A stretch of DNA of 64,000 nucleotides, taken from contig NZ_CANLEA010000005.1 in assembly GCF_947489565.1 (NCBI RefSeq), forward strand, positions 1 to 64,000, given 5' to 3'. Made by a program: the position numbers and the translations under genes. This document shows, piece by piece, positions 1 through 47,840 of the stretch. The DNA comes from an uncultured Kordia sp. (GTDB lineage Bacteria > Bacteroidota > Bacteroidia > Flavobacteriales > Flavobacteriaceae). A model generated the notes under the pieces. The model did no database searches and was not told where the DNA came from. It saw only the letters and a list, made by a program, of their open reading frames with translations. Within the stretch, counting starts at the first letter, position 1, and each line of letters opens with the position of its first letter.

Positions 1-62
1 GTACATTTGGTTGGTTAGTTTAGTTTAAAAAAACACTTCACGCTTGTGAGGTGTTTTTTCTT
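1..62 (+). ncRNA. 3' end of a first tandem small-RNA copy, cut by the window edge
   Basis: Bases 1-62 are nearly identical to 206-267, the end of the complete copy that follows, at a period of 205 bases. They hold the GGTTGGTTAGTTTAG segment and a terminator at about 27-60, with an eight-base-pair stem, GCTT loop and T-run. The promoter and 5' part would lie outside the window. The reading as an RNA gene rests on the better preserved copies to the right. Confidence 0.5.
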
Positions 63-124
63 TAACAGCATTTTTTAATTCTTTAACAGAAAACAACATC
101 TTTTTAAGATATAATATACCGTTT

Positions 125-140
125 TGGCACGGAAGTTGAA
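125..140 (+). promoter_or_regulatory. Sigma-54-like promoter of small-RNA copy B
   Basis: TGGCAC, five bases, then TTGAA. This matches the -24 element of RpoN promoters well and the -12 element partly: the expected GC is GA here. The same arrangement recurs 205 bases downstream at 330-345. A start of transcription near 150 would follow. That RpoN uses this site is an inference. Confidence 0.45.
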
Positions 141-149
141 TTATAATAT

Positions 150-265
150 ATGTACCATGATGATGACAGTACAAAGAGCTGGTTACTTGCGTAAAGAGAG
201 TCATAGTACATTTGGTTGGTTAGTTTAGTTTAAAAAAACACTTCACGCTTGTGAGGTGTTTTTTC
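150..265 (+). ncRNA. Tandem structured small RNA, copy B
   Basis: The transcript is predicted from the sigma-54-like promoter at 125-140 to the terminator at 232-265, about 115 nt. It has no open reading frame of note. An outer helix forms between TGTACCATGA (about 151-160) and TCATAGTACA (about 201-210) with one mismatch. Inside it lies a conserved block with a small hairpin (TTAC, loop TTGC, GTAA). The terminator stem is CACTTCAC/GTGAGGTG with a GCTT loop. Copy C keeps the same fold with compensatory changes. I cannot assign it to a known RNA family. Confidence 0.6.
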
Positions 266-329
266 TTTAACAGCATTTTTTACTTCTTTAACAGAAAACG
301 GAATCTTTTTAGGAAATAGTGTAACGTTT

Positions 330-345
330 TGGCACAGAAGTTGTC
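330..345 (+). promoter_or_regulatory. Sigma-54-like promoter of small-RNA copy C
   Basis: TGGCAC, five bases, TTGTC. Spacing and -24 box are the same as at 125-140. The -12 box is again imperfect (GT instead of GC). Confidence 0.45.
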
Positions 346-354
346 TTATATATT

Positions 355-470
355 GTGTATTACGATGATGACAGTACAAAGAGCTGGTTACTTGAGTAAA
401 GAGAGTCGTATTACATTTTTTGGTTGGTTAGTTTTTAAAAAACGTCTTATCGCTTGATAAGGCGTTTTTC
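355..470 (+). ncRNA. Tandem structured small RNA, copy C
   Basis: This is the second complete copy. The central block from GATGATGACAG to AAAGAGAGTC is almost unchanged; the hairpin loop changes from TTGC to TTGA. In the outer helix a T-A pair of copy B is C-G here. The terminator stem has become CGTCTTATC/GATAAGGCG while its GCTT loop is kept. Such paired changes support selection on RNA structure. It ends right before the stop codon of the convergent membrane-protein gene. Confidence 0.6.
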
Positions 471-473
471 TTT

Positions 474-890
474 TTATAGCTTGAAGAAATAACCTAGAAA
501 CGGCGCTGTGAAAATCAAAATTAATAGGAAGAATGAAAATACTTTGTCTGATAGTTTAATATGTGGATTTTTACCGTGTAAACTATCATTTATTTCATCG
601 GAACCACGCAACCACAAATAAAAATCTCTTTCATGAAGTCGCATGCTTACTGTCTTTAAAATGGCATCGAATGTATTATAAATCAACACGGCACTAAATG
701 ATCCTATGAAAATAGAAACATCTGAATCTACTATTATTTTAAAATAAATAGCAATTAACGCAATGATAAATAAAATAATTCCTGTAAGCCAACGAAGATA
801 AGATGTGTTCCAACGTTTTTTTCGATTGTATAAAAAGATAGAATTGATACCAATTGCGATGGAAAAACTGATCAAGCCGATCGTACTCAT
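474..890 (-). CDS. Small hypothetical membrane protein
   Basis: 138 residues with about four hydrophobic segments: residues 4-20, 35-50, 58-75 and 118-135. A charged loop lies near residues 82-112 (RLHERDFYLWLRG). No family was recognised. The start codon lies five bases after the stop of the ABC ATPase gene upstream, so it is probably co-transcribed as the last gene of the B12 uptake operon. That position does not prove a role in transport. Confidence 0.7.
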   Translation of the reverse strand: MSTIGLISFSIAIGINSIFLYNRKKRWNTSYLRWLTGIILFIIALIAIYFKIIVDSDVSIFIGSFSAVLIYNTFDAILKTVSMRLHERDFYLWLRGSDEINDSLHGKNPHIKLSDKVFSFFLLILIFTAPFLGYFFKL

Positions 891-895
891 GATGA

Positions 896-1690
896 TTAAT
901 TTTGAACTTTAAAACTTCCCGAATTTGCATCAAATACAATTAAATCGTTAGGAAACAATTGTTCAAAAACACCTTTTGCAATCAATTTGCAGGGCGTTCC
1001 CGAAAATACAGATCCATTATGCATCACAATCATTTCATCACACAACTGAATCGCCAAATCAATTTCATGTGTAGAAAACAACATCGTTTTTTGTGTATCG
1101 TGTGCTAATTTTTTCAGCAGATTCAACACATATGCTTTATGATACATGTCTAAATGTGTGGTGGGCTCATCGAGAATAATCATAGAAGTATCTTGCGCCA
1201 ACGCACGAGCAATCATTACTTTTTGCAATTGTCCATCACTCAACGTATAACATTTTCGATGTTTCAATTCGAGCAGATTTGTTTTTTGCAAAGCACTTTC
1301 CACAATCGCGTGATCGTTCTTAGAAAGATTTCCAATCCAATTGGTATACGGTTGACGACCTAAAGCAATCAATTCTATAACGGTTAAATTTTTGGAAGGA
1401 ATCTGTTCTGTCAACACCAAACTAATTTCCTTTGCCAATTCCGCATTTGAATAGGAGTGAAGCGGTTTATTTTGCAACATAATTTCTCCCGAAAGTGGTT
1501 GCTGAATCTTTGCCAAAGTTCGCAATAACGTAGATTTTCCAATTCCGTTTGCACCAACCAATGCGACTAATTTCCCTTTCGAAATCTTAAAATCAATCGC
1601 TTCTGCAATCACTTTTGTATTTCCTTTGTCTTGATAACCAATACTTAGTGAAGCTGCTTGTAATACTGGATATGTAATTGTTTTAGAAAT
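896..1690 (-). CDS. btuD: Cobalamin/iron-siderophore type ABC transporter ATP-binding protein
   Basis: This is the cytoplasmic ATPase of a FecCD/BtuCD-type importer. The sequence shows Walker A GANGIGKST, signature LSDGQ, Walker B MIILDEP and the switch histidine in STHEID. The nearest ordinary start codon is GTG at 1610-1612, but the reading frame upstream of it encodes VLQAASLSIGY, the conserved N-terminal strand with the adenine-stacking tyrosine. The protein must therefore begin further up. An in-frame TAG at 1694-1696 leaves only 27 codons and no ATG, GTG or TTG among them, so ATT at 1688-1690 is my provisional start. The permease and binding protein lie 4.5 kb away, beyond the peptide cassette. 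Cobalamin as substrate is inferred from the riboswitch-linked receptor at 8775. Confidence 0.8.
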   Translation of the reverse strand: MSKTITYPVLQAASLSIGYQDKGNTKVIAEAIDFKISKGKLVALVGANGIGKSTLLRTLAKIQQPLSGEIMLQNKPLHSYSNAELAKEISLVLTEQIPSKNLTVIELIALGRQPYTNWIGNLSKNDHAIVESALQKTNLLELKHRKCYTLSDGQLQKVMIARALAQDTSMIILDEPTTHLDMYHKAYVLNLLKKLAHDTQKTMLFSTHEIDLAIQLCDEMIVMHNGSVFSGTPCKLIAKGVFEQLFPNDLIVFDANSGSFKVQN

Positions 1691-1867
1691 AAGCTAATTT
1701 TTTGAGATGATAAAAGTACGGTTTTTTTTGGGTTTGTCACTTTGTGTTGTTGTCAGTTGGGATTTTTACTTTATGGTTGCTTCTAAGTATAAACTTTTTC
1801 CTTTACAAACTCTTGAATATTATTGTTTGCCAATTTGAAAGTATAATTCTAATTGATTACCCGCTAA

Positions 1868-1945
1868 CATTCTAAGAGCGAAGCGTTCTAAAAGCGACAG
1901 CGCTCTAAGAACGAAGTGATCTAAAAGGATAGTACGTCTAATTTC
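1868..1945. repeat. Degenerate TCTAARAGCGAAGC repeat cluster, left flank of peptide cassette
   Basis: About four units of 16-17 bases follow the consensus TCTAARAGCGAAGCRA (TCTAAGAGCGAAGCGT, TCTAAAAGCGACAGCGC, TCTAAGAACGAAGTGA and a weaker one). The same family occurs at 6032-6190 and 47781-47840. The rest of 1691-1960 holds no gene that I can see. Confidence 0.7.
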
Positions 1946-1960
1946 AAAAAACGAGTCCAA

Positions 1961-3718
1961 CTAAAAAATATGCAATTCTAAAGCTTCTCTGTTAAACTTT
2001 TTGTCATGAGCATCGTATACAATTGTTTTTTGATTGGGTTTTTTAAATTCAAAACTTTTGCCTTCAAAAAAATATCCTTCCAAAAGTCCGATATTTATCA
2101 GTTCAAGAATATATATGTAAGAAGGGAAATACGAACTTGATTTTGTTTCATCTAAAAACGCAATTACTTTAGCTAGCGTAAACCTTTCTTGCAAACCTGG
2201 AGACGAATCAAACGCTATTTTTAGCAAAGCATAATTATCGTGATATATCACATTTTTTAAGTAGCTAAATACTTTTTCTTCAACGTTTGAAGTTCTATAA
2301 AACTTTGGTTTGCCTTGAAATGAAGCTGGTAATAAATCTTTAAATGCAGCTCTTAAAATTTGCTTATCATACAGCAATTCTCCTTTAAGTTTGAGAGGAA
2401 TTTTTTTTAGGAGTTCAATCGAAGCAGTATCTAGAAAAGGAAATCCTATCAGAAATCCATTTGCTTGACTCAATTTTGTTTCTAAAAACACACCTCTTCG
2501 TTGCAGTGATTTTTGGTTTTTGTTTAAGTAATTTAACCATTCATCATCTCCAAATGGCCAAAGTTCTTCCCGAAAATTCATTGTTGAAAAATGATATGAA
2601 AACTGAAAGAAATCATTGAATGTAGATGCTCTGTAATCTTTCCATTTTTTTCGCAACATATTGTTCATAAACACTTCCCACGAACCATTTTCGCCTTCTT
2701 CAGAATAATCTAATGTTGTAGTTCCTCCATTAAATTGATCGCTTCCCATGCCACTCAACACATATTGAGACGAGCCGTAAACAGCATGCATTTGTTGCAT
2801 AAGTTGCGATTTTACTAAATCTTCAAATCCACAACTAATGGTTTCTTTGGAAAACACTAGTTTTATCCACTCTTCAATACTAGGTTTATCAGTAAATCCG
2901 ACAGGAAAAATTAAATGATCCGATCCTTCCCGCAATGTCAATTCTCTAGCTCTGTCTATTTCCTCATTTTGCAGGCTTGTGGTGGTGCAAATAGAAGCGG
3001 CTCGTACGTTTGTTTGTTTTGCAGCCAATGCATATACAATACTTGAATCGAATCCTCCGCTCAGTGTAACCGTAACTTCTGAATGTCCTTCTATTCTTTT
3101 ATAAACAGACTGTTCGATGTTTTCACGATAAGCCGAAATAAAATCTGAAGCAGTATAATTTGCAGCAACTTCATCATCAATGTCGTTTTCACGTTGGTAA
3201 GATGTGATGTTCCACGTTTTTTTAGTAAAATCTAATGTTCCTATTCGATTTCCTTGAATTCGAAAGATGCCATCAACTATCGTTGGAAAAGTATTTGAAG
3301 AAGCATTGGACTTTCGTTTATACAGTAATTGATCCCAATCAAGTTGAAGAGAATTACGATGCTGTTGCGTAATGGCTCTGATAGTATTGGCACAACTAAA
3401 ATCCATGTTGGTTTCATCCCAAAAGAAATAGATGGGTTGTGTAGAAAATGCATCTGTTGCAAGATGCATTTTTTTAGTATGTCCATCTATAATACATAAT
3501 GAAAAATCCCCTTCGCTACGTTCTAAAAGATATGATAAACCTTTAGTTTTGTATATATTTTCAATATTTTCTTGCGTGGCAAATTTAGAATTAAAGCGTA
3601 TTTTTCCTGTAATCCAGACTTTAATAGTATGTTGATATTGCGCTATTTTTTGTGGACATATGTTTAAAAAGAAAGGAATATTTGTATTCATTAATAAGGG
3701 AATTTTTTCTTTTAGCAT
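1961..3718 (-). CDS. Asparagine-synthetase-like ATP-dependent enzyme, probable RiPP maturase
   Basis: 585 residues with the two-domain layout of AsnB and lasso-peptide cyclases. The N-terminal Ntn-hydrolase-like part spans roughly 1-165, with GDFSLCIID at about 70-78. A PP-loop synthetase domain follows, with SGGFDSS at 220-226 and SGMGSDQFNGG at 322-332. Glutamine-dependent AsnB needs Cys at position 2; this protein starts Met-Leu-Lys and has no candidate there, so it should not hydrolyse glutamine. The family adenylates a carboxylate and then forms an amide. The ten Asp/Glu-rich precursor genes lie immediately upstream on the same strand, the last ending six bases before this start. I therefore infer that it activates Asp or Glu side chains of those peptides. 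No lasso-type leader peptidase or RRE protein accompanies it. A sugar or amino-acid amidotransferase role is possible but fits the context less well. Confidence 0.8.
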   Translation of the reverse strand: MLKEKIPLLMNTNIPFFLNICPQKIAQYQHTIKVWITGKIRFNSKFATQENIENIYKTKGLSYLLERSEGDFSLCIIDGHTKKMHLATDAFSTQPIYFFWDETNMDFSCANTIRAITQQHRNSLQLDWDQLLYKRKSNASSNTFPTIVDGIFRIQGNRIGTLDFTKKTWNITSYQRENDIDDEVAANYTASDFISAYRENIEQSVYKRIEGHSEVTVTLSGGFDSSIVYALAAKQTNVRAASICTTTSLQNEEIDRARELTLREGSDHLIFPVGFTDKPSIEEWIKLVFSKETISCGFEDLVKSQLMQQMHAVYGSSQYVLSGMGSDQFNGGTTTLDYSEEGENGSWEVFMNNMLRKKWKDYRASTFNDFFQFSYHFSTMNFREELWPFGDDEWLNYLNKNQKSLQRRGVFLETKLSQANGFLIGFPFLDTASIELLKKIPLKLKGELLYDKQILRAAFKDLLPASFQGKPKFYRTSNVEEKVFSYLKNVIYHDNYALLKIAFDSSPGLQERFTLAKVIAFLDETKSSSYFPSYIYILELINIGLLEGYFFEGKSFEFKKPNQKTIVYDAHDKKFNREALELHIF

Positions 3719-3724
3719 TTTTTA

Positions 3725-3898
3725 TTATTCATCTATATCATCATCACTATAAGGATCAGAACTACTTGATGGAGTTATTAAATCGTGTGGAAAAGTTGGT
3801 ATTGGATGTGCGTTTGCTCCACCAGAGAGATTCATTAATTTTTTGCTGTCTAATTCTTCGGAAAGCAACGTAAATATTGTTGTTTTGCGCTTTTTCAT
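3725..3898 (-). CDS. Double-glycine-leader precursor peptide, array copy 10
   Basis: 57 residues. The leader contains FTLLSEELDS and ends MNLSGG; it differs from most copies by KK in place of QT before LMNL. After the GG the variable segment is ANAHPIPTF, then the motif PHDLITP, a five-residue spacer SSSSD, PY, and the acidic tail SDDDIDE. It is the last peptide gene before the asparagine-synthetase-like gene, six bases away. Too short for ordinary gene finders. The coding call rests on the frame conserved across ten copies. Confidence 0.85.
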   Translation of the reverse strand: MKKRKTTIFTLLSEELDSKKLMNLSGGANAHPIPTFPHDLITPSSSSDPYSDDDIDE

Positions 3899-3913
3899 AC
3901 TGTTAATTTAGTT

Positions 3914-4090
3914 TTAAGATTCTTCCGGATCATCATTATCGTAGGGTTCAGAACTTCTAGAAGGAGTGATTAAATCGTGCGGATACGTGCTTACAGGACT
4001 CGCGTTTGTTCCGCCAATGAGATTCATTAATGTTTGGCTGTCTAATTCTTCAGAAAGCAACGTAAATGCTGTTGTTTTTAGTTTTTTCAT
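3914..4090 (-). CDS. Double-glycine-leader precursor peptide, array copy 9
   Basis: 58 residues. The leader has LLSEELDSQT and ends MNLIGG. The core reads TNASPVSTY, then PHDLITP, SRSSE, PY and the tail DNDDPEES. The middle segment is identical to that of copy 6 and the tail almost so. The gene to its left is 15 bases away and the one to its right 19 bases away, so all copies appear to share one transcript. Confidence 0.85.
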   Translation of the reverse strand: MKKLKTTAFTLLSEELDSQTLMNLIGGTNASPVSTYPHDLITPSRSSEPYDNDDPEES

Positions 4091-4109
4091 AATTTGAGTT
4101 TATTTATTA

Positions 4110-4286
4110 TTAACGTTTTTCTGGAGGATCATTTTCATAAGGATCAGAACTACTTGCTGGAGTTATTAAATCGTGCGGATTCGTAGGTATTGGAGTTGCA
4201 TCTGTTCCACCAACGAGATTCATTAATGTTTGGCTGTCTAATTCTTCAGAAAGCAAGGTAAATATTGTTGTTTTTTGTGTTTTCAT
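4110..4286 (-). CDS. Double-glycine-leader precursor peptide, array copy 8
   Basis: 58 residues. The protein starts MKTQKTTIFT and the leader ends MNLVGG. The core segments are TDATPIPTN, PHDLITP, ASSSD, PY and the tail ENDPPEKR. It is the only copy that ends with basic residues. Confidence 0.85.
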   Translation of the reverse strand: MKTQKTTIFTLLSEELDSQTLMNLVGGTDATPIPTNPHDLITPASSSDPYENDPPEKR

Positions 4287-4308
4287 AATTTGAGTTTATT
4301 TATTTTTA

Positions 4309-4482
4309 TCATTCATCTACGTCACCACCTTCATAAGGGCTAGATGTACTTGTTGGAGTAATCAAATCGTGCGGATTATTATTAATTGGACTAGCGTTTG
4401 CTCCACCAACGAGATTCATTAATGTTTGGTTGTCTAATTCTTCTGAAAGCAATGTAAATGCTGTTGTTTTTAGTTTTTTCAT
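4309..4482 (-). CDS. Double-glycine-leader precursor peptide, array copy 7
   Basis: 57 residues. The leader carries LLSEELDNQT and ends MNLVGG. The core segments are ANASPINNN, PHDLITP, TSTSS, PY and the tail EGGDVDE. The stop is TGA followed by TAA. The PINNN segment recurs in copy 2. Confidence 0.85.
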   Translation of the reverse strand: MKKLKTTAFTLLSEELDNQTLMNLVGGANASPINNNPHDLITPTSTSSPYEGGDVDE

Positions 4483-4501
4483 AATTCGAGCTTATTTGTT
4501 T

Positions 4502-4678
4502 TTAAGATTCTTCTGGTTCATCAAGATCGTAAGGTTCAGAACTTCTAGAAGGAGTTATTAAATCGTGCGGAAAAGTAGGTATTGGATGTGCGTTTGCTCC
4601 ACCAAAGAGATTCATTAATGTTTGGCTGTCTAATTCTTCAGAAAGCAAGGTGAATGCTGTTGTTTTTTCTTTTTTCAT
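4502..4678 (-). CDS. Double-glycine-leader precursor peptide, array copy 6
   Basis: 58 residues. The leader starts MKKEKTTAFT and ends MNLFGG. The core segments are ANAHPIPTF (identical to copy 10), PHDLITP, SRSSE (identical to copy 9), PY and the tail DLDEPEES (like copy 9). It looks like a mosaic of copies 9 and 10. Confidence 0.85.
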   Translation of the reverse strand: MKKEKTTAFTLLSEELDSQTLMNLFGGANAHPIPTFPHDLITPSRSSEPYDLDEPEES

Positions 4679-4697
4679 AATTTGAATTTATTTGTTT

Positions 4698-4874
4698 TTA
4701 CCAATCATCTACGTCAACTTCTTCATAAGGTTTAGCACTGCTTGTCGGAGTTATTAAATCATGTGGATTGTTATTTACAGGACCAGCATTTGTTCCACCA
4801 AAGAGATTCATTAATGTTTGACTGTCCAATTCTTCGGAAAGTAATGTAAATACAGTTGTTTTTTGTCTTTTCAT
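4698..4874 (-). CDS. Double-glycine-leader precursor peptide, array copy 5
   Basis: 58 residues. The leader starts MKRQKTTVFT and ends MNLFGG. The core segments are TNAGPVNNN, PHDLITP, TSSAK, PY and the tail EEVDVDDW. It is the only copy ending in Trp. Confidence 0.85.
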   Translation of the reverse strand: MKRQKTTVFTLLSEELDSQTLMNLFGGTNAGPVNNNPHDLITPTSSAKPYEEVDVDDW

Positions 4875-4893
4875 ACGTTCATTTCTTTATTTT

Positions 4894-5070
4894 TTATAAT
4901 TCATCTGGATCACCAGGAGTATACGGTTTAGTGTTACGTGATGGAGTTATTAAATCGTGTGGTAAAGTAGATATTGGAGTTGCATCTGTTCCACCAACGA
5001 GATGCATTAATGTTTGGTTGTCTAACTCTTCAGAAAGCAAGGTAAATGCCGTTGTTTTTAGTTTTTTCAT
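4894..5070 (-). CDS. Double-glycine-leader precursor peptide, array copy 4
   Basis: 58 residues. The leader ends MHLVGG. The core segments are TDATPISTL, PHDLITP, SRNTK, PY and the tail TPGDPDEL. From this copy to the start of the array the leader has MHL instead of MNL, so copies 1-4 form one sub-group. Confidence 0.85.
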   Translation of the reverse strand: MKKLKTTAFTLLSEELDNQTLMHLVGGTDATPISTLPHDLITPSRNTKPYTPGDPDEL

Positions 5071-5094
5071 AATCTGTAGTTTATTTATGTTTTA

Positions 5095-5268
5095 TCATTC
5101 ATCTATAACTTCCTCATCATAAGGTTTAGCTCTATTAGCAGGAGTTATTAAGTCATGCGGATTCGTGCTTATTGGAGCTGCATTTGCTCCACCAACGAGA
5201 TGCATTAATGTTTGGCTGTCTAACTCTTCTGAAAGCAAGGTAAATGCCGTTGTTTTTTGTTTTTTCAT
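5095..5268 (-). CDS. Double-glycine-leader precursor peptide, array copy 3
   Basis: 57 residues. The leader starts MKKQKTTAFT and ends MHLVGG. The core segments are ANAAPISTN, PHDLITP, ANRAK, PY and the tail DEEVIDE. Confidence 0.85.
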   Translation of the reverse strand: MKKQKTTAFTLLSEELDSQTLMHLVGGANAAPISTNPHDLITPANRAKPYDEEVIDE

Positions 5269-5299
5269 AATTCGAGTTTATTTATTTTTAACAATTATC

Positions 5300-5476
5300 T
5301 CATAAGTCGTCTACGTCACTAGGACCATAAGGTTCAAGTCTGCTTGTCGGAGTTAGTAAATCGTGCGGATTATTATTAATTGGAGCTGCATTTGCTCCAC
5401 CCACGAGATGCATTAATGTTTGGCTGTCTAACTCTTCAGAAAGCAACGTAAATGCTGTTGTTTTTAGTTTTTTCAT
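5300..5476 (-). CDS. Double-glycine-leader precursor peptide, array copy 2
   Basis: 58 residues. The leader ends MHLVGG. The core segments are ANAAPINNN, PHDLLTP (the only copy with Leu for Ile in the motif), TSRLE, PY and the tail GPSDVDDL. Confidence 0.85.
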   Translation of the reverse strand: MKKLKTTAFTLLSEELDSQTLMHLVGGANAAPINNNPHDLLTPTSRLEPYGPSDVDDL

Positions 5477-5507
5477 AATTCGAGTTTATTTATTTTTAAC
5501 AATCACC

Positions 5508-5675
5508 TCATAAGTCGTCTACATCATTATTATCATAAGGTTTAGCGCTTCTTGTTGGAGTTATTAAATCGTGCGGATTCGTACTTACTGGAGTTGTATC
5601 TGTTCCACCAAAGAGATGCATTAATGTGTTGCTGTCTAATTCTTCAGAAAGTAAAGTAGATATTGTTGTTTTCAT
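5508..5675 (-). CDS. Double-glycine-leader precursor peptide, array copy 1 (first in transcription order)
   Basis: 55 residues. The N-terminus is three residues shorter than in the other copies (MKTTISTLLS). The leader ends MHLFGG and the core segments are TDTTPVSTN, PHDLITP, TRSAK, PY and the tail DNNDVDDL. It is the most upstream copy, so the array promoter should lie to its right, within 5676-6030. I could not pick a convincing promoter there. Confidence 0.82.
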   Translation of the reverse strand: MKTTISTLLSEELDSNTLMHLFGGTDTTPVSTNPHDLITPTRSAKPYDNNDVDDL

Positions 5676-6031
5676 TATCGCATTATTATATGTTAGTAAT
5701 ACTTCAAAATAAAGACAAGAAAAGGAAGAAAAAAAAGGATGTATCCTACAATTCCGCGAATTACTACAAAGCTTTGATCTTTGAAACCCTTTATTTTATT
5801 GATGTTTTCAGAAAATCATCTTCTGTTTTCTTAATTGGTCGCTAGTTTCGTTTAAGAGAAATTAAAAGTATTTTTGACAGATGGAAAAAGGAATTCATAG
5901 AATGAAGGAAGTCTAAAGGCAAAGACGATTCTAACAATAAACATTTCTAGATAGTTCTATTGAACGCAGTAAAAATACATTTTTACAAAAATCACTCAAA
6001 AAGAAGTTTGAATCTATAATTTTATTCAATA
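5676..6031. other. Intergenic stretch upstream of the peptide array
   Basis: 356 AT-rich bases without a credible gene. It should contain the promoter and leader of the peptide operon on the minus strand, but no clear TTTG/TAnnTTTG pair stands out. A 60-codon plus-strand frame at 5663-5845 is lysine-rich, starts inside peptide copy 1 and has no support. Confidence 0.5.
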
Positions 6032-6190
6032 CATCTAAAAACAACAGCGAGTCTAAGAGCGAAGCAATCTAAGAGTGAAACAAGTCTAAAAGCGAAGCAA
6101 TCTAAGAGTAAAACAAGTCTAAAAAGCGAAGCGATTTAAGAGTGAAACAAGTCTAAAAAGCGAAGCGATCTAACAGCAACGCGTATCTAA
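6032..6190. repeat. Degenerate TCTAARAGCGAAGC repeat cluster, right flank of peptide cassette
   Basis: Some eight or nine units of 16-17 bases alternate between AGCGAAGCRA and AGTGAAACAAG endings and stop directly at the TAA of the permease gene at 6191. The family matches 1868-1945 and 47781-47840. In each case the cluster follows the 3' end of a minus-strand gene. Confidence 0.75.
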
Positions 6191-7222
6191 TTAAAAAATC
6201 ATCTTCCGCTTCCGTACCAACAACCAAATCACTACTGGCGCACCAACCATAGAAGTAATCGCATTGATAGGTAATGTAATATCACTAAACGGAACTTGTG
6301 CAATACTATCGCAAATCAGCAGTAAAATTCCACCAATTAAGCAGACACTCGGAACTAAGATTTTGTGATTCGTAGTATTAAAAAACAAACGTGTAATATG
6401 CGGAATTGCCAATCCGATAAACGCAATCGGACCCACAAAAGCAGTACAACTTCCTGCCATCAAACTAGTCGCAATAATTACTGTATATCGTGCTTTTTTG
6501 ATATCAATTCCCAAACTACGAGCGTAATTTTCGCCCAAAAGAAAGGCGTTTAATGATTTAATGGAAACAATGCTTAACAGAATTCCACCAACAATCAAAC
6601 CGCTTAAAATTCCCAGTTCTTGCCAGCTCAAATTTCCTAATGAACCTAAAGTCCACATCATAAATTGTTTCAATTCTTCCGCATCACTAAAATACGTTAA
6701 CACGCTTACAATCGCAGCAGTAATACTTCCAAACATCAATCCGATAATTAAGATGGACATGGTATCTTTTACACGCGTAGAAACAATCATAACCGTAAGT
6801 AACACCAAGAAACTTCCTAAACTTGCAGCAATCACCAAACTGTAACTGGATAATAATAAGGTTCCGAAAAAACCACCAAAAGCAGAAGCGCCCATAATCA
6901 ATAGTGCAACACCTAAACTGGCGCCCGAACTCAATCCTAAAACAAAAGGTCCTGAAAGCGGATTTCGAAATAATGTTTGCATCAACAAACCACTTAAGGA
7001 CAATCCGAAACCAACCAAAATAGCGGCAATAGCTTTGGGCAATCGAATGGTTAAAATTGTAGTTCGCCAAGTTTCTTTTTCAATTTCGCCGCCTGTAAAT
7101 GCTGCAAAAATTCCTTCCAAGGAAATAGAAACAGAACCCAGACTAATATTCATCAGAAAACAACCGATCAATACAAGAATCAGCACAATAAACGTAACGC
7201 GATATGATTTCTGATCAGGCAA
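6191..7222 (-). CDS. btuC: FecCD/BtuC-family ABC transporter permease
   Basis: 343 residues, the usual length for FecCD-type permeases, with about nine or ten membrane segments beginning at residues 8-28. Family signatures seen include RLPKAIAAILVGFGLSLSG, the NPLSGPFVLGLSSGASLG stretch and GPIAFIGLAIPHITR near residues 265-280. It forms the inner-membrane channel together with the ATPase at 896-1690. The start directly abuts the binding-protein stop, so the two are one operon. Cobalamin as substrate is inferred from the adjacent riboswitch and receptor. Confidence 0.88.
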   Translation of the reverse strand: MPDQKSYRVTFIVLILVLIGCFLMNISLGSVSISLEGIFAAFTGGEIEKETWRTTILTIRLPKAIAAILVGFGLSLSGLLMQTLFRNPLSGPFVLGLSSGASLGVALLIMGASAFGGFFGTLLLSSYSLVIAASLGSFLVLLTVMIVSTRVKDTMSILIIGLMFGSITAAIVSVLTYFSDAEELKQFMMWTLGSLGNLSWQELGILSGLIVGGILLSIVSIKSLNAFLLGENYARSLGIDIKKARYTVIIATSLMAGSCTAFVGPIAFIGLAIPHITRLFFNTTNHKILVPSVCLIGGILLLICDSIAQVPFSDITLPINAITSMVGAPVVIWLLVRKRKMIF

Positions 7223-8440
7223 TTACAGTAATGGTTTAAAAAAGAACGGTTGATAGTTAGGCAAAATTTCTGGATGAATGGCTTTGATAATATCTTTCAA
7301 CACAATATCTGGTCGCGTTGGCGCCAATTCATAATACATGGTGCCGCCCGTTTTTCCAACGGTATTCGCGGTGCTGTAAATCTTTTTATGCTTATAAGGT
7401 GCAAACTCAGCGTAATATCGACTAGCTTGCTTCATGTCTTCATAGGTTTTAAAACGTCCTGGACCAATCCAAATATCTGCATCAGCCGCTTTGTCCAATA
7501 CACTTTCAATACTTAAAGACAAACTTCCGGTGCCTTCTGAATCTGCCCAAATATAATCAGCATTGGCATCAATTAAATACTGTGCTTGAAAACTTTCGCC
7601 CGCAGGCAAATACCAAATGTCTTTGTACATAGCACCTGCTAAAATCGTAGGTTTTGTCGTAGCTTTTTTCGCTAATTGTTTGGCTTCTAAATAATTTTTT
7701 TCAATTTTGCTAAAAACTTCTGTGGCTTTGGCTTCTTTTTGAAAGAAAGGCGCAAAAAAGTGAATCCATTCAGCTCTTCCCAAAGGTGTTCCTTCTGTCC
7801 AATCGCCATTGTACACTACGGGAATATTGGCTTTTTGAATGGTTTTATAAGTCGGATTTGAATTGTTGATAGAAAACCCAATGACAAGCTCAGGCTGTAA
7901 ATCGATCAGCAACTCTATATTGATTTGTTCATTTTGACCGATATCTTTTACTTTTCCAGCATCAATCAAAGCACGTGTTTTTTCAGAAGAAATATAATTG
8001 GTTTGTGGAAAACCTACTAAGGTATGTTCAACACCCAACATTTCTAAGGTAGGAATATGTGTGGTTGAGGTGACGATTACACGTTCTATGGGAGTTAATA
8101 CAATAGCATCATACGCAGTACGATCTAAAGTAATAGCAGCGGCTTTTTCTCTTGGAATAAGTGCGTATTTAAAATCTTTTTCAGCATCTGGCCAAGGAGA
8201 AAATACTGTTACAACGGTAATATCGCCTGTTTTTTCAACAGAAAACTTTTTTGCATACACTAAACTTTTTGATGAATTTTCAGCATTTAGTTCGGTAGGA
8301 AGTGTTTCTTTTGGCGTTTCCTTTTTTTCAGATTTACACGAAAAACAAAGTGTGCATACGGTGAATAAAAGGCAAAAAATAGATTTGAATGATTGCATGA
8401 ATGTGGTTGCTAATTTTTTCAAAAATACTATTATTTTCAT
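7223..8440 (-). CDS. btuF: ABC transporter substrate-binding lipoprotein, cobalamin/siderophore type
   Basis: 405 residues as drawn. Met15 (8398) is an attractive alternative start, giving a compact signal MQSFKSIFCLLFTVCTLC and a lipobox LCFSC. The body is a BtuF/FecB-like periplasmic binding domain: RVIVTSTTHIPTLEMLG at the start of lobe one, ELLIDLQPELVIGF, and a GDWTEGTPLGRAEWI stretch common in Bacteroidota homologues. It should be anchored to the inner membrane and deliver substrate to the permease. It is divergent from the riboswitch-controlled receptor, with only about 330 bases between the starts. Confidence 0.87.
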   Translation of the reverse strand: MKIIVFLKKLATTFMQSFKSIFCLLFTVCTLCFSCKSEKKETPKETLPTELNAENSSKSLVYAKKFSVEKTGDITVVTVFSPWPDAEKDFKYALIPREKAAAITLDRTAYDAIVLTPIERVIVTSTTHIPTLEMLGVEHTLVGFPQTNYISSEKTRALIDAGKVKDIGQNEQINIELLIDLQPELVIGFSINNSNPTYKTIQKANIPVVYNGDWTEGTPLGRAEWIHFFAPFFQKEAKATEVFSKIEKNYLEAKQLAKKATTKPTILAGAMYKDIWYLPAGESFQAQYLIDANADYIWADSEGTGSLSLSIESVLDKAADADIWIGPGRFKTYEDMKQASRYYAEFAPYKHKKIYSTANTVGKTGGTMYYELAPTRPDIVLKDIIKAIHPEILPNYQPFFFKPLL

Positions 8441-8470
8441 CTTTATGTAGATAGATTCTAAAAGAATGTT

Positions 8471-8478
8471 TATTTTTG
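8471..8478 (+). promoter_or_regulatory. -7 element of the riboswitch/receptor promoter
   Basis: TATTTTTG matches the Bacteroidota -7 consensus TAnnTTTG. The -33 element is weak. Transcription would begin near 8482, just before the riboswitch aptamer. Confidence 0.45.
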
Positions 8479-8487
8479 CGCCGAATT

Positions 8488-8700
8488 TTGGTTTCGAGCA
8501 TAGATTACTATTCTCGAATTAAAAGGGAATCAAGTGAAAAGGTAACACACCTTCAGTCTTGAACTGTTCCCGCAACTGTAAGCATGTACTGAGTATTATT
8601 CAGTACTTCATTTCAAAATGAATTGCTATAACTACATGACCACTGAATTTTCGGGAAGGTATATAGCAAATTGTAAGTCAGGAGACCTGCCAGTTTTCAT
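8488..8700 (+). promoter_or_regulatory. Cobalamin riboswitch (B12 element)
   Basis: Canonical blocks in the right order: GGGAATCAAGTGAAAA at about 8525, GAACTGTTCCCGCAACTGT at about 8562-8580, and the B12 box AAGTCAGGAGACCTGCC at about 8675-8691. Downstream, at 8710-8732 (CAAACTTT...AAAAGTTTG) and 8734-8749 (GTATGG...CCATAC), lie two hairpins. ACTTTATTCCC near 8749-8759 could pair back to GGGATAAAAGT, so the expression platform may switch between folds near the start codon. It controls the receptor gene at 8775 on the same strand. Confidence 0.95.
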
Positions 8701-8774
8701 AATTAATGTCAAACTTTCGGGATAAAAGTTTGCGTATGGAAACCCATACTTTATTCCCATAAAAAGAAAATTAA

Positions 8775-10637
8775 ATGAAAAGAACAGTACTATCTGTTAG
8801 TGCCTTGTTTTTAGCATGTACTGGCGTATTTGCACAACAACAAGACGAAACTGAACAATTAGATGAAGTTGTCATCTCTGATTCACGTCATGCCCTAAAA
8901 CGTGAAAACTCTGGTAAAACAGTGATTAGCATTTCTAGTGAAGAAATTAAAAGAAATCAAGGAAAAACTGTAGCCGAAGTAATCAATACCAAAAGTGGAA
9001 TTGAAATTTTAGGAAGTAGAAGTAATGCAGGACAAAACTTAAGTTATTTTGTTCGTGGAGGAAACAACCGTCAAGTCTTAATTATGATCGATGGCGTACA
9101 GGTAAACGATCCTTCTTCTATTGCAAATGACTTTGATTTACGTTTGGTTGCTTTAGATCAAATTGAATCTATCGAAATTATTAAAGGAGCTTCAAGTACT
9201 TTATACGGAAGTGGTGCAGCAACTGCAGTCATTAGCATTACGACTAAAAAAGCTTCTGAAGATACCATTGCATTGCGTGTAAATAGTTCTTTTGGAACGA
9301 ACCAATCACAAGATGATTCTGATTATAATATCAACGATTTTTCAAACAGTGCACGTATTGATGGAACTGTGGATGATTTAACATATGCGGTGAGTTTTGG
9401 TCACCAAAACACTGATGGTTTATCGGCTGTAATTGGAACAGAAAGCGACCGTTTTTCTCGTACCAATGCCAATGTAAGAGTTGGATATACATTTTCGGAT
9501 GCATTCAACGTAAGCATTTTTGGTTCGCAAGATAAATTTAAGAACGATTTTGACAACTCTTCTCCAAGAGGAGATGCTGAATTTGTTGGTGTAAGTGATC
9601 AGTATCGTTTTGGAATTGCTCCAAAATATACTTACAAAAATGGTAGTGTTACCATGAATGCTGCATATACAACAATTGATCGTGAGTTTTTCTCTAACTT
9701 CCCATCAACGTTAGAAGGAGAAACAATTGCAGTAGATATTTATAATAAATACAATTTCAACAATCAATTTTATACCGTTGTTGGATTGAACTATATTGAC
9801 AACCAAACGGTTTTTGCAGAAGAGCAATCTTCTTCAATTGTAGATCCATATCTTAATGTTGTATATGTTTCTGATTTTGGATTGAATATCAATGCTGGTG
9901 GACGTTTAAACAACCACAGTGAATACGGAACACACTTTACATACAACTTAAATCCATCGTATCGTATGCCATTGGGTGAAGGATATGCAAAGGTATTTGG
10001 TTCGTACAGTACGTCATTTATTGCGCCATCATTATCTCAATTATTTGGAAACTTTGGACCAAATCCAAATTTAGAGCCAGAAGAAAACACTACGTTAGAA
10101 GGTGGAGTAGAAGTAAAGTTATCTGAAAAATTACGCGTAAGTGCCGTATACTTCAACAGAAAAGAAGAAAACTTTATTCAATATACAGTAACTGATTTCA
10201 CAACATTTGCTGGAGAATACCAAAATGTAGATACTGAGTTTACAGTAAATGGTGCGGAAATAGAAGTTTCTGCAACACCAATTGAAAACTTAACGATTGA
10301 TGCAAACTATACATTTACTGAGAAAAAAGATGTAAAAGTATTGCGTATACCAAAGCACAAAGCAAACTTAAATGTAGGCTATGCATTTTCTCCTAAGACA
10401 AATGCAGGTCTATCTTACCAATTCACTTCTGAGCGTTTAGACACTGATTTTTCAACATTCCAAGATGTAACATTGGAATCATTTAACTTAATTGGAGCAA
10501 ATGTAAATCACCAGTTTAACAAGCGTTGGAGCGGATTCTTAACAGTATCAAATATATTCAATGAGGAATATACAGAGATTACAGGATTTACAACAAGAGG
10601 TACCAACGTTCGTGTTGGATTCTCTTTAAACCTGTAG
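8775..10637 (+). CDS. btuB: TonB-dependent vitamin B12 receptor
   Basis: 620 residues, typical of BtuB-like receptors. A signal peptide ends around FAQQQ (residues 1-20). The plug domain follows at roughly 30-150, with DEVVISDSR, FVRGGNNRQVLIMIDGVQV, IESIEIIKGASSTLYGSGA and ISITTKKA. The remainder is a beta-barrel ending in the aromatic/Leu C-terminus VRVGFSLNL. The cobalamin riboswitch directly upstream identifies cobalamin (or a relative) as the likely cargo. It works in the outer membrane with TonB/ExbBD and feeds the divergent BtuFCD genes. Confidence 0.93.
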   Translation: MKRTVLSVSALFLACTGVFAQQQDETEQLDEVVISDSRHALKRENSGKTVISISSEEIKRNQGKTVAEVINTKSGIEILGSRSNAGQNLSYFVRGGNNRQVLIMIDGVQVNDPSSIANDFDLRLVALDQIESIEIIKGASSTLYGSGAATAVISITTKKASEDTIALRVNSSFGTNQSQDDSDYNINDFSNSARIDGTVDDLTYAVSFGHQNTDGLSAVIGTESDRFSRTNANVRVGYTFSDAFNVSIFGSQDKFKNDFDNSSPRGDAEFVGVSDQYRFGIAPKYTYKNGSVTMNAAYTTIDREFFSNFPSTLEGETIAVDIYNKYNFNNQFYTVVGLNYIDNQTVFAEEQSSSIVDPYLNVVYVSDFGLNINAGGRLNNHSEYGTHFTYNLNPSYRMPLGEGYAKVFGSYSTSFIAPSLSQLFGNFGPNPNLEPEENTTLEGGVEVKLSEKLRVSAVYFNRKEENFIQYTVTDFTTFAGEYQNVDTEFTVNGAEIEVSATPIENLTIDANYTFTEKKDVKVLRIPKHKANLNVGYAFSPKTNAGLSYQFTSERLDTDFSTFQDVTLESFNLIGANVNHQFNKRWSGFLTVSNIFNEEYTEITGFTTRGTNVRVGFSLNL

Positions 10638-10664
10638 AGTTTATTTAATACCTATCATAAGTTG

Positions 10665-10694
10665 AAAGCCATTGGGAAACCAATGGCTTTTTTT
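10665..10694 (+). terminator. Rho-independent terminator after btuB
   Basis: AAAGCCATTGG, GAAA tetraloop, CCAATGGCTTTTTTT: an eleven-pair stem with a T-run, 27 bases after the receptor stop. Confidence 0.9.
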
Positions 10695-10780
10695 GTGAAT
10701 TTAAATTACGTATAAATACGCTACGGAATATGAGATAGTTAGTTTAACTTGTGAAAAACTAATTTTTAAAACCATATTGC

Positions 10781-12013
10781 ATGAGTAGTCCAAATCCATT
10801 TCCAATTACAATCGTAAATAATTCAGGTTCAAGTGAAGATGTACATGTAACCATAAAAGGAATGAATGCGTCCATTAAAGGGAATAAAAAACAGCAGTTT
10901 TACAATCCAACCACTAAAGATTGGAGTGATAATGCTACTTCTATAAATATAGGAACGTCTAAAGAGAGTGTCATTAACATTCCGAATATAAACTCAGGAA
11001 TTGTATATCTTTCTTTTGGAGCAGCCTTAAAATTTGCAGATCGGATATCGCCACCAAATGTTGGAAATCCTTCCGATCCTAGTTTTAATGTGATATATGA
11101 TAAGTTTGAAATTTCGTTTTTACCAACAGATGGTTTCCCGTTTATTGACATTACGAATGTAGATTTCTTCTGTGTTCCGTTACAATTACAAGAAAAATTG
11201 TCAGACGGAAGTACAAACGGCCCTAAAGGTTTTTCGAAGAGTAGAAAGGATGTTTTCAGTTCTTTTTCAGCTGGAATGAAAGACAATTGGGCAAAAATTA
11301 TACAAAACCCAAACAAAGAAGGAATTTTAAGGATTATTGCACCTAATAAAGCATTGGTTTCAAACAATGTAATGGATAATGATTTTGATGCTTCCAGTTT
11401 TCAATCGTATGTAGATGCGGTTTGGGAATATTATGCGGAAGGAAAAGGGAAATCAATTCAAGTAGATATGTCTGAGATTGCCAAATTCAATCCAGGCTAT
11501 CAAGATGTCGTTTTTGAAGGTGTTGTAAGCGGTGGAAAGTTTGTGTTTTCAGAAAAAGACGGCAGTGGAAAATTGCCTAAAATCACTTTTACGAAACCTT
11601 CAGGAAGTAATCAGATAAAAGGAAGTGTTTTTGGTTGCGAAGATTTATTTGCAGCGCCAAATAATACACCACAATCGGTTCCTGCAAAAAATTTAGGTGC
11701 CGCTTTTAATGTTGGACTTTTAGCACATCCAAGCATAACCGATCCCGTATTATATTTAATGCCTCCAACAACGAAAACTCAAAGTAAAAATTGGAAAACG
11801 TATAAAGATGAAAAAGTTTTTTATACGAATACAATGACATTAAAAGATGGGAGTACGTTAGATTGCTACAATGTGTATTCAAAATATATTCATGAAAATG
11901 CGATTGATAGTGATGACTATGGATTTGCCTTTGACGATGTAACACAGAGCGATTCTACACTGGCAGATAAAAATGCAACAGGTGCTATTGTAACGATTCA
12001 GAAGATTGACTAA
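10781..12013 (+). CDS. GH64-like beta-1,3-glucanase / thaumatin-fold protein
   Basis: 410 residues. The order of a beta-sandwich start (FPITIVNNSG), the FEISFLPTDGFPFIDITNVDFFCVPLQL stretch in two parts around residues 108-140, and a later FNVGLLAHPSI region resembles glycoside hydrolase family 64 beta-1,3-glucanases. I cannot verify the two catalytic acids by eye. No signal peptide is visible: the protein begins MSSPNPFPIT. It would therefore stay in the cytoplasm or leave by an unusual route. It stands alone between two terminator-like hairpins. Confidence in the family is moderate. Confidence 0.6.
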   Translation: MSSPNPFPITIVNNSGSSEDVHVTIKGMNASIKGNKKQQFYNPTTKDWSDNATSINIGTSKESVINIPNINSGIVYLSFGAALKFADRISPPNVGNPSDPSFNVIYDKFEISFLPTDGFPFIDITNVDFFCVPLQLQEKLSDGSTNGPKGFSKSRKDVFSSFSAGMKDNWAKIIQNPNKEGILRIIAPNKALVSNNVMDNDFDASSFQSYVDAVWEYYAEGKGKSIQVDMSEIAKFNPGYQDVVFEGVVSGGKFVFSEKDGSGKLPKITFTKPSGSNQIKGSVFGCEDLFAAPNNTPQSVPAKNLGAAFNVGLLAHPSITDPVLYLMPPTTKTQSKNWKTYKDEKVFYTNTMTLKDGSTLDCYNVYSKYIHENAIDSDDYGFAFDDVTQSDSTLADKNATGAIVTIQKID

Positions 12014-47780: not shown

Positions 47781-47840
47781 TCTAACAGCGCAAAGCGCGA
47801 TCTAACATCTAAATATCTAAAAGCAAAGCAGTCTATCTAA
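47781..47840. repeat. Degenerate TCTAACAGCGCAAAGC / TCTAAAAGCAAAGC repeat cluster
   Basis: Three or four units of the family seen at 1868-1945 and 6032-6190, again directly after a minus-strand stop codon (TGA at 47842-47844). Between 47591 and 47780 I see no gene, only AT-rich sequence and a short AGCGAAGTCGAAGTGAAG stretch. Confidence 0.6.

Follow-up and report, generated by a model that had tools for sequence, protein, structure and literature searches.

A ten-copy precursor-peptide array beside an asparagine-synthetase-like enzyme in Kordia: a candidate RiPP cassette

Introduction

What does an enzyme of the asparagine synthetase (AsnB) family act on when its gene lies directly behind ten small peptide genes? 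The question is raised by a locus of an uncultured Kordia sp. (assembly GCF_947489565.1), in the first 64,000 nucleotides of contig NZ_CANLEA010000005.1, the stretch analysed here and referred to as the window. Ten tandem open reading frames (ORFs) on the minus strand encode peptides of 55-58 residues with a double-glycine (GG) leader, and an asparagine-synthetase-like enzyme of 585 residues is encoded behind them. The reading that we lean towards, with a little less than even confidence, is that the locus is a two-component cassette for a ribosomally synthesised and post-translationally modified peptide (RiPP), in which a glutaminase-dead AsnB-type enzyme would condense an Asp or Glu of the core intramolecularly while the leader is attached. 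Judged by their sequences, the shared leader, the GG cut, the constrained core motif and the carboxylate-activating enzyme in cis together appear to fit such a cassette.

The Precursor Array

From the first to the last copy, the precursor ORFs are located on the minus strand at 5508..5675, 5300..5476, 5095..5268, 4894..5070, 4698..4874, 4502..4678, 4309..4482, 4110..4286, 3914..4090 and 3725..3898, and encode peptides of 55, 58, 57, 58, 58, 58, 57, 58, 58 and 57 residues, respectively; copy 1 has the shortest leader. Neighbouring precursor ORFs are separated by gaps of 15-31 nt, and 6 nt lie between precursor 10 and the start of the enzyme ORF (3718-1961), with all genes in the same direction. 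The ORFs thus confirm a sequence-only reading of this DNA, which had described ten minus-strand genes for peptides of 55-58 residues and an AsnB-fold gene six bases past the last copy. The 6-nt spacing reads as translation-coupled, which would support the pairing of enzyme and precursors.

Alignment of all ten copies reveals 25 invariant columns. The core consists of nine residues after the GG with an invariant Pro among them, the motif P-H-D-L-[IL]-T-P, five variable residues, PY, and an acidic tail of seven or eight residues. Some details of the earlier description need adjustment. The motif PHDLITP is found in nine copies, copy 2 (5300-5476) having PHDLLTP, and the leader element LDS is found in eight copies, with LDN in the other two. 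The nine post-GG residues, described as variable, include Pro in every copy at column 32, Ala or Thr at column 28 and Ala in nine of ten copies at column 30. In the acidic tail, Asp or Glu occupies column 56 in 10/10 copies and column 57 in 9/10.

Two carboxylates are common to all ten copies, Asp39 of PHDL and the Asp/Glu at column 56. Among side-chain nucleophiles, His38, Thr42 and Tyr50 are retained in the core of every copy. Four copies have a core lysine at column 48 and one copy has a lysine at column 57, and there is no conserved Cys. The conserved core Thr/Ser and Asp/Glu that characterise graspetide precursors are represented by Thr42, Asp39 and Asp/Glu56, each in 10/10 copies.

Selection on the Copies

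Substitutions were counted for all copy pairs by the Nei-Gojobori method (own script). In the nine columns of PHDLITP and PY the proportion of non-synonymous differences (pN) is 0.0097 and that of synonymous differences (pS) 0.472, and in the remaining core columns the values are 0.364 and 0.375, with the proviso that copy pairs are non-independent and that gene conversion may blur these values. The corresponding dN/dS ratios are 0.30 for the leader, 0.64 for columns 28-36, 0.02 for PHDLITP, 0 for PY, 1.17 for columns 44-48 and 1.40 for the tail. Selection maintains PHDLITP and PY, and the variable positions evolve at roughly an unconstrained rate or above it. Between copies, pS ranges from 0.13 to 0.55 (mean 0.33), which rules out an array of recent copies. 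The array is more than a product of chance or fresh duplication, as the motif combines a high pS with a pN near zero, whereas pN in the rest of the core is 0.364.

The AsnB-like Enzyme

The enzyme (1961..3718, minus strand) matches PF00733 with 88.7 bits (cut-off 21), which places it in the asparagine synthetase superfamily. An AlphaFold2 model (mean pLDDT 70.7, pTM 0.77) has as its best Foldseek matches human and Escherichia coli asparagine synthetase, TsnB9, beta-lactam synthetase and carbapenam synthetase (E 4.6e-16 to 1.5e-12 across the first 23 matches); profile, model and structural matches together bear out the AsnB fold claimed earlier. The ATP-pyrophosphatase half is intact: the enzyme keeps the SGGxDSS motif, an alignment of 18 rows of AsnB-like proteins shows S220, G221, G222, D224, S225, D327, K452 and K472 without variation, and K472 aligns to Lys443 of beta-lactam synthetase. 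Met324 aligns to Glu364 of human asparagine synthetase and Tyr348 of beta-lactam synthetase; it was considered as a telling change and dropped, as the position also varies among relatives.

The glutaminase half is incomplete. The GATase_7 match (29.6 bits, cut-off 25) covers only positions 48-121 of the 123 in the profile, and neither Cys2 nor the HRGPD or NGE motif is found in the 585-residue sequence. In a profile of three enzyme rows (A3), searched against 395 class genomes, this enzyme enters at position 40 and the other listed rows at positions 1-25; the profile matched 349 of the 395 genomes, with 221 bits for the best foreign row versus 865 for the enzyme itself. Among relatives at 29 foreign loci, 27 gave a parsed enzyme and two no parsed ORF. 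MC is at or near the start in all 27 (at residue 1 in 25), HRGPD is present in 23 and NGE[IV]YN in 20. As Cys2, HRGPD and NGE are all missing, the glutaminase half of the Kordia enzyme is probably dead. An ordinary asparagine synthase was rejected, since the glutamine-hydrolysing asparagine synthase model TIGR01536 gives 102.1 bits against a cut-off of 267.1 and the Cys2 glutaminase motifs are gone.

An AsnB-type enzyme with a dead glutaminase would be expected to draw on an amine or hydroxyl within its own substrate, and the incomplete glutaminase half therefore favours an internal condensation over amidation. Amidation would use free ammonia, or ammonia from a partner glutaminase, to turn either the PHDL Asp or the carboxylate at the C-terminus into an amide (or nitrile). 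It has precedent: in a 2026 preprint, the non-lasso RiPP AsnB-like enzymes with known reactions (TsrC, ScdTA and PesC) amidate or nitrilate C-termini, and PesC accepts ammonia (PMC13060819). The C-terminal residues of the ten copies also differ, as would suit a sequence-blind C-terminal reaction. We nevertheless consider amidation quite unlikely, given a glutaminase half that lacks the catalytic and glutamine-binding motifs and a constraint on PHDLITP and PY that a C-terminal reaction leaves unexplained.

Leader and Export

TIGR04149, a model of Bacteroidota GG leaders with a cut-off of 25, scores copy 2 at 24.7 bits and copy 10 at 19.3 bits and does not match copy 1. Genome-wide, the model gives 27 matches at E values of up to 1, all of them under the cut-off, and nine of the 27 belong to the array. 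A GG leader close to this model, together with selection acting strongly on the leader and the core motif, supports the proposed RiPP-like precursor family. Peptidase C39 domains exceed their cut-off at four places in the genome, two of which fall within open frames that are 739 and 742 codons long, and the genome profile search places none within the window. A C39 peptidase is likewise usually not encoded in ATP-grasp loci, according to a graspetide survey (PMC8939145).

Small GG-leader-like ORFs with other cores, often Cys-containing, were also observed elsewhere: at L017/L024 (C1 of the same genome, near 308 kb), L009, L014, L016, L019, L020, L021, L023 and L027. Several of them adjoin TPR-type proteins.

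The array may also encode plain GG-leader secreted peptides, such as signals or bacteriocin-like peptides, with the enzyme an unrelated or decayed AsnB copy. The genome's other GG-leader-like ORFs have no such enzyme in the short stretches inspected, and a single locus of the present kind is known; a match of copy 10 to the type-A lantibiotic family PF04604 (13.7 bits, cut-off 21.7) says little. Against this stand the 6-nt spacing, the intact 585-codon frame, the retained ATP-site residues and the joint absence of both parts from ten congeneric genomes, and we regard this explanation as unlikely.

Comparison with Known Systems

Lasso cyclases are the best-known AsnB-type RiPP enzymes, and lasso precursors as a rule carry Thr at leader position -2 and an acid, Asp or Glu, at core position 7-9. 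The Kordia locus shares with the lasso systems of models NF033535 and NF033561 an AsnB-family enzyme beside a short precursor and an expected carboxylate adenylation, but differs in the absence of the B1 and B2 proteins, in a GG in place of the leader Thr and in a core without acid at positions 7-9. The two cyclase models match weakly, with 56.7 bits (cut-off 525) and 48.8 bits (cut-off 300). A standard lasso locus was rejected on these scores, on the missing B1/B2 and on the core, in which none of the ten copies has the acid. This agrees with the sequence-only reading, which had set the locus apart from lasso loci; a cut after GG leaves 0/10 copies with Thr at -2, and neither a protein with a RiPP recognition element (RRE) nor a leader protease is found among the neighbours scanned, although with the contig end near window base 1 they may be located in trans.

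A lasso-like N-terminal lactam would require a protease in trans to free the core N-terminus in the cytosol, so that the enzyme could join it to the PHDL Asp or another acid. Apart from the prominence of lasso cyclases and the two weak matches, the evidence is unfavourable: both scores are far under their cut-offs, a B protein/RRE or protease is not among the neighbours scanned, and a cut after GG leaves core positions 7-9 without Asp or Glu in every copy. The invariant Asp, at core position 12, lies past the 8-9 residue rings of caulosegnins as described (PMC13352647), and the GG site points to cleavage at export, after modification. A lactam of this kind thus appears improbable.

According to the preprint, AsnB-like enzymes besides lasso cyclases occur in RiPP loci, and RiPP-linked AsnB-like candidates number ∼3,800, of which ∼3,500 are lasso-related and ∼300 uncharacterised (PMC13060819). 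The locus resembles TsrC, ScdTA and the PesC of nitrilobacillins, as described there, in pairing an AsnB-like enzyme with a ribosomal peptide that is not of the lasso class. PesC depends on glutamine and on the MNIO enzymes of its locus, whereas the Kordia enzyme lacks glutaminase motifs and no MNIO is found among the neighbours scanned.

Bacteroidetes graspetides (ATP-grasp branch 5, TIGR04149/TIGR04139-type) offer a parallel in precursor design. According to the survey, their precursors start with MKKL, contain a GG site and have Thr/Ser and Asp/Glu strictly conserved in the core (PMC8939145). The Kordia array is alike in its MKK-starting GG leader, several precursors per locus, conserved core residues of these types and a C39 peptidase usually encoded elsewhere; it differs in that the carboxylate-activating enzyme is AsnB-type instead of ATP-grasp and in lacking a conserved core Cys. 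Neither an ATP-grasp nor a SPASM enzyme is found among the neighbours scanned, the remaining window ORFs having been listed only.

Two further systems are instructive. Beta-lactam and carbapenam synthetases exemplify intramolecular amide formation by the AsnB type; they share the fold, and the equivalent of Lys443 is present in the Kordia enzyme, but they act on small molecules, and Tyr348 of beta-lactam synthetase is replaced by Met324. In the prochlorosins, one enzyme serves many precursors with a common leader and a varying core by lanthionine chemistry. The array is similar in its shared leader and varied core, but its core keeps a fixed motif.

Proposed Mechanism

Computation establishes the layout of the genes, the pattern of selection, the fold family of the enzyme, its lack of glutaminase motifs, the lineage-specific insertion and the presence of C39 genes in the genome; from these we infer how enzyme and peptides work together, where and by which bond, and what is exported and by what, as follows. 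The ten precursors, with their one leader, would be served in cis by the single AsnB-family enzyme, which would adenylate a core side-chain carboxylate while the leader is still attached; the candidates are the invariant PHDL Asp (column 39) and the kept Asp/Glu at column 56. Because the glutaminase half looks dead, the acyl-AMP would react with a nucleophile within the peptide itself and not with glutamine-derived ammonia, giving a ring or cross-link with a mass shift of -18 Da. The bond may be an ester to Thr42, which is invariant, or to a nearby Ser/Thr, or an aspartimide with the backbone nitrogen of Leu; as the alpha-amine would be blocked while the leader is on, these options are preferred over a lasso lactam. 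The GG leader would then be cut on export by a C39-type exporter encoded elsewhere in the genome.

Several points weigh against this proposal. The TIGR04149 cut-off is missed by all three precursors scored, narrowly by the best (24.7 of 25), and an RRE-like protein, a leader protease and an exporter are absent among the neighbouring proteins scanned; the contig ends ∼0.9 kb past the ATPase gene downstream of the enzyme, and additional genes of the pathway may thus have escaped notice. Acidic positions besides columns 39 and 56 drift, and the invariant residues may be kept for receptor recognition or folding and not for modification. In the enzyme, Met324 occupies the position of Glu in human asparagine synthetase and Tyr in beta-lactam synthetase, which makes the general-base chemistry less certain, and model confidence is low in the N-terminal residues 1-50 and the central residues 334-389. 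Finally, the cassette is known from one locus, and hence provides no evidence of enzyme-precursor co-occurrence.

A bolder version holds that the AsnB-type enzyme alone performs graspetide-style side-chain cyclisation, to a lactone or aspartimide, and that the locus represents a new RiPP class with a ten-member combinatorial set around PHDLITP...PY. This version specifies leader-bearing precursors, with a separate RRE protein, MNIO and protease not in the locus, and we hold it to be doubtful. If the enzyme alone does close a side-chain ring, the AsnB fold would independently do the job of ATP-grasp in graspetides. More generally, the cassette would join the known non-lasso RiPP AsnB-like enzymes, with a precursor family that has no relative in the searches made. 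Its two components, one enzyme and any of ten natural substrates, would be small enough for direct reconstitution, and the ten variants already map the core positions open to change, a help in tests of substrate tolerance.

Distribution of Enzyme and Precursors

Searches drew on overlapping samples of 397 family, 395 phylum and 371 order genomes, with the genome itself among them, and scored the three best candidates per genome. These samples contain no ortholog of the enzyme besides itself, and neither do ten congeneric genomes or the viral_contigs collection. In the 11 genus genomes, which include its own, two matches of 23% identity besides the enzyme itself start with MCG and lie in loci that read as polysaccharide clusters. 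A pattern search of genome_contigs matched seven stretches and no relatives, patterns from one sequence being poor probes. The precursor profile finds only the ten copies of the window in the 397 family genomes and the 11 genus genomes; precursor searches matched 12 stretches in genome_contigs and 39 in viral_contigs, none of them relatives, and one precursor used as query found none among phages and plasmids. The core was earlier suspected to belong to no described family; the searches made agree, and full-text literature searches turned up no paper recognisable as describing the cassette.

The distant relatives of the enzyme are ordinary MC-starting AsnB-like enzymes, and the short stretches inspected around them hold no peptides of this kind. 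Enzymes of Streptomyces plasmids (24%, E 2e-20) are distant, have MC starts and were not used as functional evidence. As a separate observation, two such plasmid genes (L044, 8695-10899; L045, 8680-10848) carry a C-terminal extension that is PqqD-like by eye and lie near annotated PqqD family, diiron oxygenase and MFS genes, with a radical SAM gene in L045; they possibly represent another peptide pathway.

Genomic Context

The cassette sits between the genes for a B12-uptake permease of the FecCD/BtuC type (6191..7222, minus strand, upstream and in the same direction) and the matching ABC ATPase (896..1612, minus strand, downstream). A cobalamin riboswitch (85 bits, 8472-8708, plus strand) precedes a TonB receptor gene at 8775, and the host operon is therefore a B12-uptake locus. 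The permease gene is present in 10/10 congeneric genomes at 85-97% identity. The ATPase gene adjoins it in six of the ten loci, at a distance of 62-647 nt versus ∼4.4 kb here; the ATPase block was not found in the fetched stretch of three loci, and L101 is cut by a contig end. When window bases 1-12000 were compared with the ten congeneric loci by blastn, nothing matched between 1751 and 6103, which marks the cassette as a lineage-specific insertion. The upstream border of the insert carries two copies of GCTTCGCTYTTAGA (6052..6098, minus strand; exact at 6052 and 6085) and the downstream border one (1871..1884, minus strand; exact at 1871); a further copy with one mismatch lies at 47816. The number of occurrences expected for the repeat is 0.06.

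Gain of the array after the split, or as a ready-made array, fits the data because the mean inter-copy pS of 0.33 is below the permease pS of 0.49 between this genome and its nearest congener; loss elsewhere is the alternative. The permease-ATPase spacer of two congeners holds other small ORFs, and with different small genes in L093, L097 and the window, it may be an insertion hotspot.

A repeat of ∼120-150 nt was also observed beside the ATPase gene, at window positions 101-270 and 306-473 (plus strand). Twenty copies align, these two and 18 in six congeneric loci (L093, L094, L097, L099, L100 and L102), and no Rfam family matches the repeat at gathering level. Each copy starts with TTTGG[CT]A followed by TTG, which we take to resemble a sigma54 -24/-12 element, and ends with a terminator-like hairpin; seven of 23 predicted pairs are changed on both sides, some within the hairpin. 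By its sequence features the repeat looks like a multicopy sigma54-driven small RNA, possibly comparable to the Qrr RNAs of Vibrio.

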